This document shows, piece by piece, positions 12,643-20,739 of a DNA stretch of 39,819 bases. A model generated the notes under the pieces. The model was not told the origin of the DNA, ran no database searches, and saw nothing but the letters and a program-made list of their open reading frames with translations. The translations under genes and the position numbers were made by a program. Origin of the DNA: an uncultured Methanobrevibacter sp. (GTDB lineage: Archaea; Methanobacteriota; Methanobacteria; Methanobacteriales; Methanobacteriaceae); the NCBI RefSeq assembly GCF_905235195.1, contig NZ_CAJOKH010000002.1:1-39819 (forward strand). Direction: 5' to 3'. Numbering within the stretch: the stretch's first letter is position 1; every line of letters starts with the position of its first letter.

Positions 12643-12760
12643 AATTTATTTTTTAATAATACTTAAATTGTTTATAAATTAAAATAATTTATTAATCATA
12701 AGAATAATATCTAAATATATAGTCTTGTAGTATTTTTTATATTAATAGGAGATGTTTAAT

Positions 12761-13684
12761 ATGTATGAAACTTTGACTTATACTGGTGGAATTCATAAGA
12801 GTAATGAAATGAGGGAATTAATTGAAGATTTAGGTGGATTTATTATACAAGAAAATATTATACAAATGGACCTTGTAGTAAATATGGCAGTTCCTATTGA
12901 TGATGTTGTAAAAATTAAAGAAAAGTCAAAAGAATTATTAGGTGAAATTACATTTGCTCCTATGGCTGGAACTGAGATAGCTATTGTTTCTCCAACTCTT
13001 GCAAGACATCATCTTCCACATGCAGCATGTGATATTTCCGAATATCTTAGAAGATATGGTGCAAAAGATAATATGGTTGGTTTGGCTAGAGGTCATGGTA
13101 AAGGAACCAGCGGTATTTCTCAGGAAGAAAAATATTTAATTGAAGAACATGATGTTGCAATTTTCGCTCTTGGAAGTTTTAAAGATTGTATTATTGAAAA
13201 ATCATTTTTATATGAAGATATTGATATTCCTGTCATAGTAACCGGGGCTCCTGAATTAGATGTTGAAGATTTGCCTGGTGTAGATGCTTATGTGGGGGGT
13301 TTAGGTAGAATTCCTCGAAGACTTAAACGTGGAGAAAATATTAGAGCTCTTAAAAGATTAGTTCAAACAACTGAAGATATTTTAAATAAAAAGAAAAAAT
13401 ATATGGCTCAAGATTCTCCTTTAGTACCTCCAATTATGGTTAAAAATGCTATTGAGACACAAATTCCTGCTATTGAAACAACTTATACTCCAACTCCTGT
13501 TACAAGTCAGTTAGATGGTGTTAGAATTAAACTTGATTATGATACATATCATGAAGACATTGAAAATGTTGAGATTGCAGGACATAAACTTAAAGAAATT
13601 GCTGATGTTTCAAAATCTCATATGTATGATTATACTCTTGTGAAATTATTCTCTCAAAGTTCATTAACTTTTGATGAGAGTTAA
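12761..13684 (+). CDS. mmp7: methanogenesis marker protein 7
   Basis: 307 residues from [10 protein letters not shown], the conserved family start. An upstream in-frame ATG at 12752 is unlikely because AGGAG (12747-12751) touches it, whereas 12761 lies 9 bases after that SD. The protein contains [35 protein letters not shown]-type marker-7 sequence around residues 85-120. Mmp7 is found only in methanogens and relatives and has been reported with McrC, Mmp3, Mmp17 and the AtwA ATPase in the complex that reductively activates methyl-coenzyme M reductase. Its place beside mmp10 and mcr fits this. Confidence 0.9.
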
Positions 13685-13801: not shown

Positions 13802-15058
13802 TTATTGTGGAGCTTCCATTCCATAAAAGTTAATTGCATCTACAAGATCATTAAATTCCTCTAATTCTCTTTCAATAACATTTTCTTCAGTTAAATTTCC
13901 ACTTAATTCTCCATCAACACTAAGTGTATCAGGTCCACGAGCAACTAATCGTTCATTTCCATCATTTGAAAAAATTCTCTCAGCATCTAATTGGTGAATA
14001 TAAGATCTGCCAGGTATTAAAACAGTATCTTTAACTTCTCTTAAATCAATATTTTCAAGGTCATCTTTTGTAATTAAACATGCTATGTCTTTTTCTGTTG
14101 AAATCACATTAACATGGTCTTCAGCACCTATTTTTTCAAATATTTTAGCTATTTTTGGACCTGCAATTTTTGAAGATATGATTGTAGCATAACCTGTAAC
14201 TTTCGCAATAAATTGGAGGTATATTTCATTTCTATCTTTAGATATTGCAAATGGTGCTCCAGTTTCAGGGTCACATACGGGAGTTCCAGTAATTCTTAGT
14301 TTTGGAAATTCAGAGTTAATGTCTTTTACAAGTTGTTCAAAACTTTCAACTGATTGGGAATCAATACCTTTTACTATAGGTCCATTACCTAGGACTAGAC
14401 CTCCTTCAGTGCTATTTGCAAATCTCATTAAAATTCCTGCATGTGCACCCCACTCTTCTAGTTTCTCGCAAGTATTTCTAAGTTCATATCCGTCATTTAC
14501 ACCAGGAATAATTACCATTGCTGCATGTAGCTCAGTATTTTCGCAGAATAATTTTGCAGTTTCAAGTGATACTTCAGGATTTGAATCTCCCATCCATTCT
14601 CTTCTAAGTTTGCTGTTAGCTGCAAATAGTGTAAATGTTACTTCATTAACCCCATATTTAATTAAATCACTTGCCCATTCAACACTATCAATACCTTTTC
14701 CGCTAGTATAACCTAAATGCATAGGTATTTGAAATTGATTAATAGTAGCTGCAAGTTCCTGTATTTGAGGATAACAACTTACATCTCCACCTCCACTAAT
14801 GTTTACTTTGAGATTATTATCACGTACTGGATTAAACATTAATGTAGATTGAACCTCATTAATAACTAAAAAAGCAGGTTTAAACTCTGATAGGGCATCT
14901 TGAATACCTATGGAACATTTTTCACAACCAATTGTTTTAGGAGAACAATATTTGCATCCTAATGCTTTTATTTCACTTACTTTTTTAAAGTAGCAGTATT
15001 TACAAAAACCTCTACAGTCTTTTCCAGGTATTCCACCTACATCAGCTAAAATTTGCAT
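13802..15058 (-). CDS. mmp10: radical SAM McrA-arginine methyltransferase (methanogenesis marker 10)
   Basis: Mmp10 is a cobalamin-dependent radical SAM enzyme that makes 5-(S)-methylarginine on McrA. This 418-residue protein begins MQILADVGGIPGKDCRGFCKYCYFKK. Cys15, Cys19 and Cys22 are the CxxxCxxC ligands of the SAM [4Fe-4S] cluster. A second set, Cys35, Cys38, Cys45 and Cys48, can bind another metal, as the family does. NISGGGDVSCYPQ around residues 83-95 is the GGE-like AdoMet segment. It reads away from mcr. Its target, Arg271 of McrA, is encoded 4.6 kb to the right. Confidence 0.93.
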   Translation of the reverse strand: MQILADVGGIPGKDCRGFCKYCYFKKVSEIKALGCKYCSPKTIGCEKCSIGIQDALSEFKPAFLVINEVQSTLMFNPVRDNNLKVNISGGGDVSCYPQIQELAATINQFQIPMHLGYTSGKGIDSVEWASDLIKYGVNEVTFTLFAANSKLRREWMGDSNPEVSLETAKLFCENTELHAAMVIIPGVNDGYELRNTCEKLEEWGAHAGILMRFANSTEGGLVLGNGPIVKGIDSQSVESFEQLVKDINSEFPKLRITGTPVCDPETGAPFAISKDRNEIYLQFIAKVTGYATIISSKIAGPKIAKIFEKIGAEDHVNVISTEKDIACLITKDDLENIDLREVKDTVLIPGRSYIHQLDAERIFSNDGNERLVARGPDTLSVDGELSGNLTEENVIERELEEFNDLVDAINFYGMEAPQ

Positions 15059-15490: not shown

Positions 15491-15500
15491 ATTTATATTA
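15484..15500 (+). promoter_or_regulatory. mcr operon promoter (BRE/TATA)
   Basis: A TATA box, TTTATATTA at 15492-15500, is preceded by a purine-rich BRE-like AAGGTAAT. Its centre predicts a transcription start near 15522-15523, giving a 5' leader of about 120 nt before mcrB. Confidence 0.6.
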
Positions 15501-15523
15501 TATCTTAAAGATATTAAAATTTG

Positions 15524-15613
15524 TATACCATATGGCTTGCTATGCAAAAACTTGCTTTGTAGCTTACTTAACATAAACTATAAAAAACGCTATGTTTATG
15601 ATTAAGTGGTATA
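15524..15613 (+). ncRNA. candidate structured leader RNA of the mcr operon
   Basis: The leader folds on paper into a three-stem junction. P1: TATACC (15524-15529) with GGTATA (15608-15613). P2: GCTA/TAGC (15539-15542 with 15560-15563) extended by GCAA/TTGC (15544-15547 with 15552-15555) around an AAAC loop. P3: ACTTAACATAAAC (15566-15578) with GTTTATG-A-TTAAGT (15594-15607), 13 bp with one bulged A. P1 begins 1-2 nt after the predicted start of transcription, and P3 ends where P1 resumes. The SD (AGGAGGG) lies 20 nt downstream. It may be a riboswitch-like element or a stabilising 5' fold. I know of no named RNA family for it. Confidence 0.5.
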
Positions 15614-15644
15614 TTAGTAACTCTATTTATTTAGGAGGGAAAAA

Positions 15645-16976
15645 ATGGCGAAGTTTGATGATAAAGTCGATTTATACGACGATAGGGGTACATTAGTCGA
15701 TTCCAATGTACCTATTGAAGCTCTAAGTCCAGTACGTAACCCAGCTATTCAAAAAATTGTAACTGGTATTAAAAGAACTGTTGCTGTAAACTTAGAAGGT
15801 ATAGAAAACTCATTAAGAAATGCTGCTGTCGGTGGTAAATCTAGTAAAATCTTAGGAAGAGAAATGGACCTTGATATTACTGGTAATGCTGATGCTATTG
15901 CAGCATCCTTAAAAGATATGATTAAAGTTACCGATGATGATGATACTAAAGTAGAACTCATTTCTGATGGTAAAAGGATTTTAGTACAAGTCCCAAGTAA
16001 AAGAATAGATGCTTCTGCAGAATATTCTGTTGCAACTTTAGCTACTTCTAATGCTTTAATCCAAGCTATTATTAATAATTTGGATGTTAACATGTACGAT
16101 GCTAACATGGTCAAAGCTGCTGTTTTAGGTACATACCCACAATCTGTAGATTATGGTGGATCTAACATTGCAACTATGTTAAACGTACCTCAAAAATTAG
16201 AAGGTCCTGGTTACTCATTCAGGAATATTACTGCAAACCACATTGTTGCAGCTACCCTTAAAAACTCTTTCCAAGCTACTGCTTTAGCTAGTATCTTAGA
16301 ACAAACTGCAATGTTTGAAATGGGAGATGCAATTGGAGCATTTGAAAGAATGCACTTATTAGGTTTAGCTTACCAAGGAATGAATGCAGATAACTTAGTA
16401 TTAAGCTTAGTACAAGATAATGCAACTGACTCTTCTGTTGGTGATATTATTATGGATACTATTGGAAGAGCTAATGCTGATGGAATTATTGGTGTTGAAA
16501 AAGATTTAAATGGATTCAATGTATACCAAACTGACGATTTAGCTAAATGGAACGCTTACGTAGCTGCTGGTTCTGTTGCTGCAACTATGGTAAACGTTGG
16601 TGCTGCTCGTGCTGCTCAAGGTATTCCATCCACTATTTTATACTTCAACGATTCAATTGAATTTGCTACTGGTTTACCTGGTCTTGACTTCGGTAGAGGT
16701 GAAGGTGTAGCTGTAGGATTCAGTTTCTTCTCTCACTCTATCTATGGTGGAGGAGGTCCTGGTTTATTCAATGGAAACCATATTGTTACAAGACATAGTA
16801 AAGGTTTCACAATTCCTTGTGTAGCTGCAGGTATGTCTTTAGATGCTGGTACTCAACTCTTCTCTCCAGAAGCAACATCTGGATTAATTAAAGAAGTATA
16901 CAGTAGAATTGACGAATTCAGAGAACCTCTTAAATATGTCGCAGAAGCTGCTTCAGACATAAAAGGAGATATCTAA
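15645..16976 (+). CDS. mcrB: methyl-coenzyme M reductase I subunit beta
   Basis: McrB is one of three subunits of the (alpha-beta-gamma)2 Ni-F430 enzyme that makes methane and the CoM-CoB heterodisulfide from methyl-CoM and coenzyme B. The 443-residue length is normal. The conserved [13 protein letters not shown] is present, and its tyrosine is residue 367, the substrate-pocket Tyr367 known from Methanothermobacter. Other family segments include [23 protein letters not shown]. It is first in the operon, has a strong SD (AGGAGGG, 15633-15639), and uses C-ending codons heavily, as expected for a very abundant protein. Confidence 0.98.
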
Positions 16977-17021: not shown

Positions 17022-17483
17022 ATGGACATTGAAATATTTCCTTATAGAATCATTAGTGCAGATACTACTGAAAAATTACTAAACGGTATTGAAAGTTTAG
17101 ATGATGTTAGAAGGACTGTTATTCATGGACCAAGACTTCCCCCTGATGATCCTGATTTAGATCCAAAATATAAAGATAAAAGGGAAATTACTGTTAAAGG
17201 TAAACCAATAGAACTTAAGATTCGTGTTGGTCGTATCTTTGTAGATTTAACTTCTGAATCTGCTATTAAAGAAGTTGAAAAAATCTGTGATGAAGTACTT
17301 CCATTTGGATATGATATTAACACAAGTAGAAGTGAATACATTAGAAAACACAAAACTGTTAGTGATGCTATTAAATATGGTGTTGAAGATAATAATCTTC
17401 CTGATGAATTGATTGGTATGACTGATCAAACTAGACAACTAGCAGAAAATCTTGATTACATTGATTATGATGAAGTGGAATAG
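17022..17483 (+). CDS. mcrD: methyl-coenzyme M reductase operon protein D
   Basis: 153 residues, starting [23 protein letters not shown] and containing [12 protein letters not shown], the McrD pattern. McrD is not in the mature reductase. It is thought to bind apo-Mcr and help assembly or F430 delivery. It lies 45 bp after mcrB and its stop is 5 bp before mcrC. Unlike mcrB, G and A it uses mostly A/T-ending codons (phenylalanine nearly always TTT), consistent with lower protein amount. Confidence 0.95.
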
Positions 17484-17488
17484 GTAAT

Positions 17489-18085
17489 ATGATTGGAAGA
17501 ACAACACATGTAGTTGACTGCCGTGAAACCATGGGTCTTGGTGAAGGTGGAGGAATTGCTCAAAGAGGAACTTTTGCTAAATGTGGAAGTGATGTTATTG
17601 CTGTTGCAATGTCTCCTGGACGAAGACATATTACTAAACCTGTATGTGAAATTACATTTGCATTACGTGAAGCAAATTTATTAACTAGTACTATGATTTT
17701 AAATGCTGGTGCTGGTGTTCCTGGTGATGCTCCAGGAGTTGGTGCTTCTAGTTTATTTGGTTTAACTCCTGAAGAGATTGAACAATTAAATCAGTATAAA
17801 CTTTTAGTTATTCATTTAGGGGGAGTAAGAAATCATATTATTTATAAAGCAAGGTTAATATTGAGAAATGTAAATAGGCCTTGTGTTATTATATGTGAAT
17901 ATCCTGTTGATTTTGAGGATTTCGCAAAAATAGGGATTAAAACTTCTAAGGTTATGCCTGATGAAGTTCAAACAAAAGGAACCATTATTAATATTATTAG
18001 TGGTGTTATAAGAGGACAAACTGTTTCTCAAGAACAATTAGATGAAATTATTAGAAAAGTTAAATTAGCATTAGGAGATGCATAA
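17489..18085 (+). CDS. mcrC: methyl-coenzyme M reductase operon protein C (activation factor)
   Basis: 198 residues, starting [32 protein letters not shown]. McrC is part of the ATP-dependent complex that reduces inactive Ni(II)-Mcr to Ni(I), together with marker proteins such as Mmp7 and the AtwA ATPase. Presence of mcrC in the cluster, with the type I sequence of McrA, shows this is the mcr and not the mrt operon. It is packed between mcrD (5 bp) and mcrG (2 bp). Codon use is A/T-ending like mcrD. Confidence 0.95.
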
Positions 18086-18087
18086 TT

Positions 18088-18837
18088 ATGGCACAATATT
18101 ACCCAGGTACATCTAAAGTTTCTAAAAATAGAATACATTTTGCTGACCCAGATCAAGAGTTAGAAAAATTAAGAGAAATTTCAGATGAAGATATAGTAAA
18201 AATATTAGGTCACAGGGCTCCAGGTGAAGAATATAAATCAGTTCACCCTCCTTTAGATGAAATGGATGAGCCTGAAGACATTGTAAGAGAAATTGTTACA
18301 CCAATTGATGGTGCAAAAGCAGGAGACAGAGTAAGATATATTCAATTCGCTGATTCCATGTACTTCGCTCCAGCTCAACCTTATGTAAGAGCTAGATCAT
18401 ACATGAACAGATACAGAGGAATTGATACCGGTACCTTATCCGGAAGACAAGTTATCGAAGTAAGGGAAAGAGATCTCGAAAAACTTTCAAAAGAGTTATT
18501 AGAAACAGAATTCTTTGACCCAGCAAGAACTGGAATCAGAGGTAAATCTGTACACGGTCACTCCTTAAGGTTAGATGAAGACGGTATTATGTTCGATATG
18601 TTAAGAAGACAACTTATGAACAAAGAAACCGGTCATGTAGAAATGGTAAAAGATCAAATTGGAATTCCTTTAGATGAACCTATTGACTTAGGTGAACCTT
18701 TAGATGAAGAAAAATTAAAAGATATTACCACAATTTACAGAGTAGATGGTGACGCATACAAAGATGACAAAGATGCTGTTGAAGTATTACATAAAATCCA
18801 TGTCACCAGATCCCAAGGAGGATATTGCCCTGAATAG
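18088..18837 (+). CDS. mcrG: methyl-coenzyme M reductase I subunit gamma
   Basis: 249 residues, starting [21 protein letters not shown]. The segment LSGRQ places Ser118 and Arg120 at the numbers known for coenzyme-binding residues of the gamma subunit. The C-terminus ends [12 protein letters not shown] as in the family. It begins 2 bp after mcrC and is followed by mcrA after 14 bp, with GGGGAGG as SD. Codon use returns to the highly expressed type. Confidence 0.98.
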
Positions 18838-18851
18838 GGGAGGTTATTATT

Positions 18852-20504
18852 ATGGCTGATAAAAAATTCATTGATGCATTAAATAAAAAATTCAAAGAAT
18901 CCCCAGAGGAAAAAACTACCACTTTCTATGATTTAGGTGGTTGGAAACAATCTGAAAGGAAAACCGAATTCTACAATGCAGGTAAAGATATTGCAGATAA
19001 AAGAGGTATTCCTATGTACAACCCAGATGTTGGTAGTCCATTAGGACAAAGGACTTTAATGCCTTACCAATTATCTACTACTGATACTTATGTAGAAGGG
19101 GATGATTTACACTTCATCAACAACGCTGCTTTGCAACAAATGTGGGATGATATTAGAAGAACTGTTATTGTAGGATTAAACACTGCACATAACGTTCTTG
19201 AAAGAAGATTAGGTATGGAAGTAACTCCTGAAACTATTACTAATTACTTAGAAACTGTAAACCACTCTATGCCTGGTGCAGCAGTTGTACAAGAACATAT
19301 GGTAGAAACCAATCCATACTTAGTAGCAGACAGTTATGTTAAAATCTTTACTGGTGACGATGAATTAGCTGATGAAATCGACAAATGTTATGTTTTAGAC
19401 ATTAACAAAGAATTCCCAGAAGCACAAGCAGAAGCTCTTAAAGCTGAAGTTGGCGATAAAATTTGGCAAGCTGTAAGGATTCCATCTTTAGTAGGAAGAG
19501 TTTGTGATGGGGGTACTACCTCTAGATGGTCTGCTATGCAAATTGGTATGTCTATGATTTCCGCATACAACCAATGTGCTGGTGAAGGTGCAACTGGAGA
19601 TTTCGCATATGCATCCAAACACGCAGAAGTTATCCATATGGGTACTGCTTTACCTCAAAGAAGAGCAAGAGCAGAAAACGAACCTGGTGGAGTTCCATTT
19701 GGTTTCTTAGCTGATATTTGTCAATCATCAAGAGTAAATCCAGACGACCCTGTAAAAATAACCTTAGATGTAGTAGCTACTGGTGCTGGTTTATACGATC
19801 AAATTTGGTTAGGTTCTTACATGTCTGGTGGTGTAGGATTCACTCAATATGCTACTGCAGCATATACTGATAATGTTCTTGATGACTTCACTTACTATGG
19901 TAAAGATTATGTAGAAGACAAATTCGGTTTAACTGAAGCTCCTAACAACATGGAAACTGTTCTTGATGTTGGTTCTGAAGTTACTTTCTATGCATTAGAA
20001 CAATTCGAAGAATTCCCTGCATTACTTGAAACTCAATTTGGTGGATCTCAAAGAGCTGCTGTTGTTGCAGCTGCTGCAGGTTGTTCCACTGCATTTGCTA
20101 CTGGAAATGCTCAAACTGGTTTAAGTGCTTGGTACTTATCCCAATACTTACACAAAGAACAACATTCCAGATTAGGATTCTACGGTTACGATTTACAAGA
20201 TCAATGTGGTGCTTCTAACGTATTCTCATTCAGAAACGATGAAGGTTTACCACTTGAAATGAGAGGTCCTAACTATCCTAACTACGCAATGAATGTAGGT
20301 CACCAAGGTGAATATACTGGTATTGCACAAGCTCCTCACGCTGCACGTGGAGATGCATTTGTATTTAACCCATTAATTAAAATTGCATTTGCAGATAAAA
20401 ACTTAAGTTTCGACTTCACTCAACCTCGTGCTGAATATGCTAAAGGTGCTTTAAGAGAATTCCAACCTGATGGTGAAAGATCTTTAATTATTCCAGCTAA
20501 ATAG
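18852..20504 (+). CDS. mcrA: methyl-coenzyme M reductase I subunit alpha
   Basis: McrA holds the F430 nickel site. The 550-residue length equals that of Methanothermobacter McrA and the numbering aligns without gaps. Gln147 (axial Ni ligand) and Tyr333 are present. So are all residues known to be modified: His257 (N-methyl), Arg271 (5-methyl), Gln400 (2-methyl), Gly445 (thioglycine, in FYGYD), Asp450 (didehydro-Asp) and Cys452 (S-methyl). I checked each at codon level. Presence of the residue does not prove modification, but the Arg271 enzyme gene mmp10 is nearby. It is last in the operon and followed by a strong hairpin terminator. Phenylalanine codons are mostly TTC. Confidence 0.99.
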
Positions 20505-20535
20505 GTGTATTAACACCTATTTTTTCTTTTTTTTT
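20501..20535 (+). terminator. mcr operon terminator
   Basis: ATAGGTGT (20501-20508) pairs with ACACCTAT (20513-20520) around a four-base loop, directly followed by a long T-run. The stem overlaps the TAG stop of mcrA. Confidence 0.8.
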
Positions 20536-20564: not shown

Positions 20565-20580
20565 GAAAAGTTTTTATATA
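20565..20580 (+). promoter_or_regulatory. mtr operon promoter (BRE/TATA)
   Basis: GGAAAAG followed by TTTTTATATA (TATA core 20573-20580) forms a strong archaeal promoter. It predicts transcription from about 20603, so mtr is expected to have its own transcript in addition to any readthrough from mcr. Confidence 0.6.
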
Positions 20581-20602: not shown

Positions 20603-20717
20603 CATTAGTCTTTGACTGATGATTTTAGAGAAAAAATATTATGGAAATATTTCTTGTTTGATTTAACAAGTAAAATATAAATCTTTTATTTCACGTTTAT
20701 TAAATTACTAATTTAAT
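20603..20717 (+). promoter_or_regulatory. mtr operon leader with a row of hairpins
   Basis: Four stems in a row: CATTAGTC/GACTGATG (20603-20610 with 20614-20621, 8 bp with one G-U, 3-base loop), AAATATT/AATATTT (20634-20640 with 20646-20652), CTTGTT/AACAAG (20653-20658 with 20665-20670), and ATTAAATT/AATTTAAT (20699-20706 with 20710-20717). The first starts at the predicted transcription start and the last lies just before the SD (AAGGAGG, 20725-20731). The all-AT stems may be chance; the first and third are the stronger ones. Confidence 0.45.
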
Positions 20718-20739
20718 AAAAACTAAGGAGGAAAAAAAT

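Follow-up and report, generated by a model that had tools for sequence, protein, structure and literature searches.

The methane-forming reaction is catalysed by MCR, and species of Methanobrevibacter are major methane producers in rumen and gut. To our knowledge, archaeal mRNAs offer few examples of structured leaders that are conserved. The initial annotation of a 39,819-nucleotide stretch of DNA from an uncultured Methanobrevibacter sp. (contig NZ_CAJOKH010000002.1; hereafter the window, to which coordinates refer) placed a three-way-junction RNA in the leader before mcrB. This raises the question of whether the predicted fold is a conserved RNA and, if so, what it might do for the operon that it precedes.

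Results

The mcr leader folds into a compact three-way junction

Folding of positions 15523-15614 of the window reproduced the proposed architecture in all its parts: a P1 helix, a small P2 hairpin, a 13-bp P3 stem with one bulged A, and a P3 that directly adjoins P1 on the 3' side. The whole element, delimited by folding, by conservation and by a match of 87.8 bits to a covariance model (R1, see below), occupies 15523..15614 of the forward strand, on which all features lie unless otherwise stated. Within it, P1 (UAUACC/GGUAUA) pairs 15524-15529 with 15608-15613. Its two strands, GUAUACCA (15523..15530) and UGGUAUAU (15607..15614), are predicted to be extendable to 8 bp by G15523-U15614 on the outside and A15530-U15607 on the inside, the latter in competition with the first pair of P3. 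The P2 hairpin covers 15534..15564, and the P3 hairpin (15566..15607) pairs 15566-15578 with 15594-15607 around the bulged A15601 and carries a short apical extension on top. The minimum free energy of the element is -21.7 kcal/mol, compared with a mean of -12.9 for dinucleotide shuffles (z -3.3), and none of 200 shuffles equalled it. When the full leader was folded together with 45 nt of coding sequence, P1 was paired with a probability of only ~0.5 at equilibrium, so the copy in the window is not the strongest.

Transcription of the mcr operon probably starts at the first base of the element

A TATA box (TTTATATT, 15492..15499) begins 31 nt before G15523, the predicted transcription start given the usual archaeal TATA-to-start spacing, so that the element probably begins where transcription does. 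In 52 of 73 leaders, the best TATA-like octamer begins at this same distance of 31 nt upstream of the G of GUAUAC, although it is ambiguous in Methanothermobacter-like ones. This suggests that in most species the first base of P1, or one beside it, is also the first base of the mcr mRNA. A literature search returned no mapped mcr transcription start.

The leader spans 15523-15644, and the Shine-Dalgarno sequence of mcrB (AGGAGGG, 15633..15639) lies beyond the fold, 19 nt past the end of P1, in close agreement with the gap of 20 nt given initially. It is followed by mcrB (15645..16976; Pfam PF02241/PF02783) and, at 17022..20504, by mcrD, a third ORF that is weakly MCR_C-like and sits in the mcrC position, mcrG and mcrA (all Pfam). 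A hairpin with a U tract 3' of mcrA (20499..20530; sequence and fold) is the probable end of the mcr transcript, after which the genes continue from mtrE onward. The leader itself contains no U-tract terminator after P3. In predictions made on leaders with coding sequence, the Shine-Dalgarno sequence was unpaired with a mean probability of 0.74 and the mcrB AUG was often paired (mean unpaired probability 0.29). The distance from the end of P1 to the Shine-Dalgarno sequence is ~15-28 nt in most leaders and is similar throughout the order. Two further genes lie upstream of mcrB in the window, both identified by Pfam: a full-length member of the MCR_C family (12752-13684) and, divergent on the minus strand, a radical SAM gene (13802-15058); these are possibly MCR activation and modification genes.

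Pairing of P3 is conserved within the family, and the sequence of P2 within the Methanobrevibacter group

We drew mcrB homologues from named genomes, 139 genomes of the family and 151 of the order, and compared their leaders. All 73 distinct mcrB leaders analysed from the family outperformed shuffled versions of themselves in folding energy (mean z -3.7, with 97% of the values below -2), and single-sequence folds of nearly all of them gave a P1 enclosing two hairpins. MAFFT, working from sequence only, did not line up P3 correctly, and RNAalifold recovered P1 alone from the result; single-sequence folds, an arm-swap test and a covariance model were therefore used. In the arm-swap test, which is free of alignment, the 5' arm of P3 from each of 65 leaders was paired with the 3' arm of the same leader and, in turn, with 3' arms taken from leaders that lie 5 or more edits away in that arm. 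Own partners reached -11.5 kcal/mol and swapped partners -5.5, with 5% of swaps equally good. On a covariance-model alignment of 64 leaders, which is biased toward structure, P3 was 89% paired in its true register, compared with 17-54% when slid, and double-sided changes numbered 57, compared with 28 in shuffles. Since a 2-nt spacer causes P3 of the smithii-like group to be wrongly placed in this alignment, its count of 69% paired for P3 understates the helix.

Thus, it is the pairing of P3, rather than its sequence, that is conserved. P2 is kept mainly as sequence, unpaired positions included, across most Methanobrevibacter-type genera (~60 leaders); 32% of its arm swaps were as good as the own arm, giving no clear covariation signal. 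The compensatory pairs that had been looked to as support for the fold were found in P3 by arm swap and in the flanks of P1 by comparison between clades. Relatives that break P1 and P3 without compensation, which would have spoken against it, were not seen, both helices being kept, with compensation.

A GUAUAC clamp is the only constant across the order

Among Methanobrevibacter-type genomes (64 leaders), P1 is invariant except for its innermost pair, and since it hardly varies there it carries little information within this group. Leaders from more distant clades, whose labels ('-like', f2, and f3 for the Methanothermobacter-like genomes) rest partly on gene content, were examined by visual comparison and through their folds, R1 not having been seen to reach the Methanobacterium-like and Methanothermobacter leaders. 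GUAUAC is kept at the same place in Methanobacterium-like, f3 and f2 leaders. The pair that follows it is C-G in the Methanobrevibacter group and U-A in most Methanobacterium-like, f3 and f2 leaders, with A-U in L034 and C-G in L025 as exceptions and a U-U mismatch in three Methanobacterium-like leaders (L021, L120, L122). The outer G of P1 is partnered by U in the Methanobrevibacter group and by C in the other three, and changes of P1 pairs are seen across three of the order's families. P1 extends to 10-14 bp with matched partners in f3 and f2 leaders, and the P2 and P3 hairpins there are wholly different. Several Methanobacterium-like leaders (L021, L025, L028, L122) fold only weakly better or no better than their shuffles. 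In M. curvatus (L004:2714-2967), P3 has been enlarged by AT-rich sequence, and both P1 arms are kept, ~240 nt apart. The sole order-wide constant is hence the GUAUAC clamp, the sequences of P2 and P3 being replaced between genera.

The clamp, as GTATAC, was absent from mcrB leaders of other methanogen orders. Two Methanofastidiosum mcrB leaders (L036, L042) share hairpins of their own (AAGTCC/GGACTT and GATATCC/GGATATC, ~100 nt upstream), which are common to the two genomes and unrelated to the Methanobacteriales mcr element.

The element precedes mcrB alone and matches no described family

A covariance search, as had been proposed, recovered the element before mcrB: R1 gave 84 matches with E < 1e-4 in the 139 family genomes. 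For 76 of these, an mcrB match follows on the same strand, at a median distance of 31.5 nt. Contig edges account for the remaining eight, of which seven read into the start of mcrB and one is cut before it. In all, 83 of 84 matches run into mcrB and the remaining one ends at the contig end. The genome of the window has one match, and none was found before mrt or any other gene in the 139 family genomes. The leaders of mrt, which encodes the isoenzyme, lacked the element wherever they were examined, as did Methanosphaera-like genomes, in which only an mrt-type gene was found. Five Methanosphaera-like mrt leaders (L159, L161, L162, L164, L166) carry a different conserved leader, CCCGGAATGAAT..ATTCATTTCTTAATGAAT, before the mrtB start; this leader of the MCR isoenzyme may be structured as well.

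The initial annotation knew of no described RNA family here, and neither an Rfam scan nor a literature search turned one up. In a scan of the window against Rfam 15, no family exceeded its gathering threshold; over the element, the best permissive match was rli51, with 15.6 bits (threshold 48) and an E value of 4.4. We found no description of an mcr leader RNA in the literature, where an unlisted earlier prediction, including one in older mcr-promoter work, is possible; a survey of the human microbiome lists five unnamed archaeal candidate structures (PMC8040213), with which the mcr leader could overlap. We regard the element as a structured leader that is new but belongs to a known general kind; its form, a three-way junction anchored at the 5' end, is unusual.

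A hairpin also begins at the predicted start of mtrE

As an independent check, we turned to mtrE, which opens the next methanogenesis operon downstream of mcr. It has a TATA box (TTTATATA) at 20573 and a predicted start at A20604, where a hairpin of 7-8 bp (AUUAGUC UUU GACUGAU, 20604-20620) begins. Among 167 promoters sampled from ~456 kb of the genome (416 kb of contigs plus the window), the mtrE leader ranked second for 5'-terminal pairing; the median was 0.46, and 6% reached 0.9. The rank of mcrB was left out, the scan having picked the wrong TATA for it. In relatives, 12 of 27 mtrE leaders with a TATA-like box beat 90% of their shuffles, with ~3 expected, and many have different hairpins at the same site. 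Hairpins at the 5' end thus recur on the mcr and mtrE operons and are not general in this genome.

A few other genes of this genome have a hairpin at their predicted start (L266:9168, L279:2382 and L267:16652 among them); one encodes a protein with DUF1890 and another a fusion of Fae and HPS. A further hairpin, TTTATTAAAT-GATC-ATTTAATAAA, lies just before the mtrE Shine-Dalgarno sequence in most Methanobrevibacter-type genomes (~20698-20722 in the window; L221-L249).

Discussion

Taken together, these data identify the element as a leader RNA that acts in cis on the mcrBDCGA operon and is conserved among Methanobacteriales. The explanation that we favour, tentatively and with somewhat less than even confidence, is that the leader seals the 5' end of the mcr message and insulates its ribosome site, stabilising the mRNA. 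Transcription would start at or beside the first base of P1, as the promoter predicts, and the 5' end of the finished leader would be tied into P1, with P2 and P3 sitting inside the junction that P1 closes. An end clamped in this way would leave 5'-to-3' exonucleases, archaeal RNase J among them, with almost no single strand to attack, and the structure of the leader would be held away from the ribosome-binding site, ~20 nt past the fold. The outcome would be a long-lived, constitutively translatable mRNA for one of the cell's most abundant proteins; we infer from the arrangement of the clamp both its protection from nucleases and its effects on half-life and translation. Archaeal RNase J relatives are 5'-to-3' exonucleases, and the genome of the window codes for a member of the RNase J family (TIGR00649, 523 bits, G000:C49); judged by its family, this protein would provide the host with a 5'-end-dependent RNase.

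A clamp that stays constant while P2 and P3 are replaced between genera is what would be expected if the clamp were the functional part, and its position at the predicted 5' end, the interchangeable hairpins and a Shine-Dalgarno sequence outside the fold all fit sealing combined with insulation of the ribosome site. The 5'-terminal hairpin of mtrE, on the next methanogenesis operon, also speaks for sealing. Counting against sealing, the mrt operon and most other promoters have no such clamp, P1 in the window's copy is only half formed at equilibrium with coding sequence, the AUG is often paired, and several Methanobacterium-like leaders fold poorly relative to shuffles. Of the two roles put forward for the leader at the outset, stabilisation of the mRNA fits these data better, and sensing of F430, nickel, CoM or CoB is unsupported.

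A simple hairpin could also seal a 5' end, and the constant junction and conserved P2 suggest something more specific. Because the junction and the P2 of the Methanobrevibacter group exceed what sealing needs, binding of a protein has to be kept in view, and the main rival explanation, on balance unlikely, is that translation or stability of mcr is set by a protein bound to the junction or to P2, much as ribosomal proteins regulate their own operons; candidates would be an MCR assembly or operon protein, such as McrD or McrC, and a general RNA-binding protein. The sequence of P2 is indeed kept in most Methanobrevibacter-type genera while P3 is free, and an element confined to a single operon is what autogenous control would predict; however, P2 is entirely different in Methanothermobacter, f2 and Methanobacterium-like genomes, and its arm swaps show no clear covariation. 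Inside the Methanobrevibacter group, P2 may bind a ligand or a protein. For the order as a whole, we think it rather unlikely that the 5'-anchored junction responds to an MCR assembly factor or to a signal from a cofactor and so adjusts mcr output to the supply of F430 or substrate, with the 5'-anchored mtr hairpins in the same system. If the junction instead served translation, as a ribosome standby site or by preventing the AU-rich leader from masking the start, with decay unaffected, the short P1 to Shine-Dalgarno spacing, alike across the order, and the mostly unpaired Shine-Dalgarno sequence would be accounted for; we consider this doubtful, since on its own it leaves the position of P1 at the predicted transcription start unexplained.

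A riboswitch for F430, Ni2+, CoM, CoB or a related compound finds little support and is, in our view, decidedly unlikely. The compact three-way junction is a common aptamer shape, the enzyme of the operon uses F430, CoM and CoB, and the P2 sequence is conserved in one group, but no unpaired core is conserved order-wide, GUAUAC being the only constant, and P3 is greatly enlarged in M. curvatus. Moreover, there is one locus per genome, always mcrB, and neither a terminator nor an alternative fold masking the ribosome-binding site is evident, the Shine-Dalgarno sequence being predicted to lie mostly outside the structure. Highly improbable, finally, is a DNA dyad, in which the two copies of GTATAC, one near the start and one ~85 bp further on, would serve as half-sites of an operator and the RNA fold would be a by-product. 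The 5' GTATAC is a palindrome and is invariant order-wide; yet the downstream copy in the Methanobrevibacter group is GTATAT, which breaks the palindrome and keeps the RNA pairing through G-U, the bases flanking GUAUAC change in pairs, as do those of P3, and the distance between the copies varies from ~56 to ~240 bp.

In E. coli, leaders of the ompA type have 5'-terminal stem-loops that stabilise bacterial mRNA. The mcr leader would, given its predicted start, likewise have a structure at the very 5' end, and it shares with these a highly expressed message, a ribosome-binding site downstream in single strand, and pairing that is kept with sequence left free. It differs in being a three-way junction rather than a hairpin, and archaeal rather than bacterial, with RNase J as the presumed nuclease and a stabilising role that is likewise presumed. 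Like ribosomal-protein-type autogenous leaders, it is one structured leader on one operon that an operon product may control, but it lacks an order-wide conserved binding core and a known binding protein. With three-way-junction riboswitches such as the TPP and purine classes it shares a P1 that closes two leader hairpins, but it has no conserved ligand core, second locus, evident expression platform or Rfam match; riboswitches often precede several genes of one pathway, which is typical rather than defining. In Methanolobus psychrophilus, alternative 5' UTRs with stem-loops that mask the ribosome-binding site have been described (PMC5378194). A post-transcriptional role has been proposed for those methanogen leaders too, but the longer of them is predicted to mask the ribosome-binding site (PMC5378194). 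In mcr, this site lies outside the fold.

An RNA element kept on mcr from Methanobrevibacter to Methanothermobacter opens the post-transcriptional control of methanogenesis to direct tests, and the mcr leader would suggest how archaea preserve very abundant messages.
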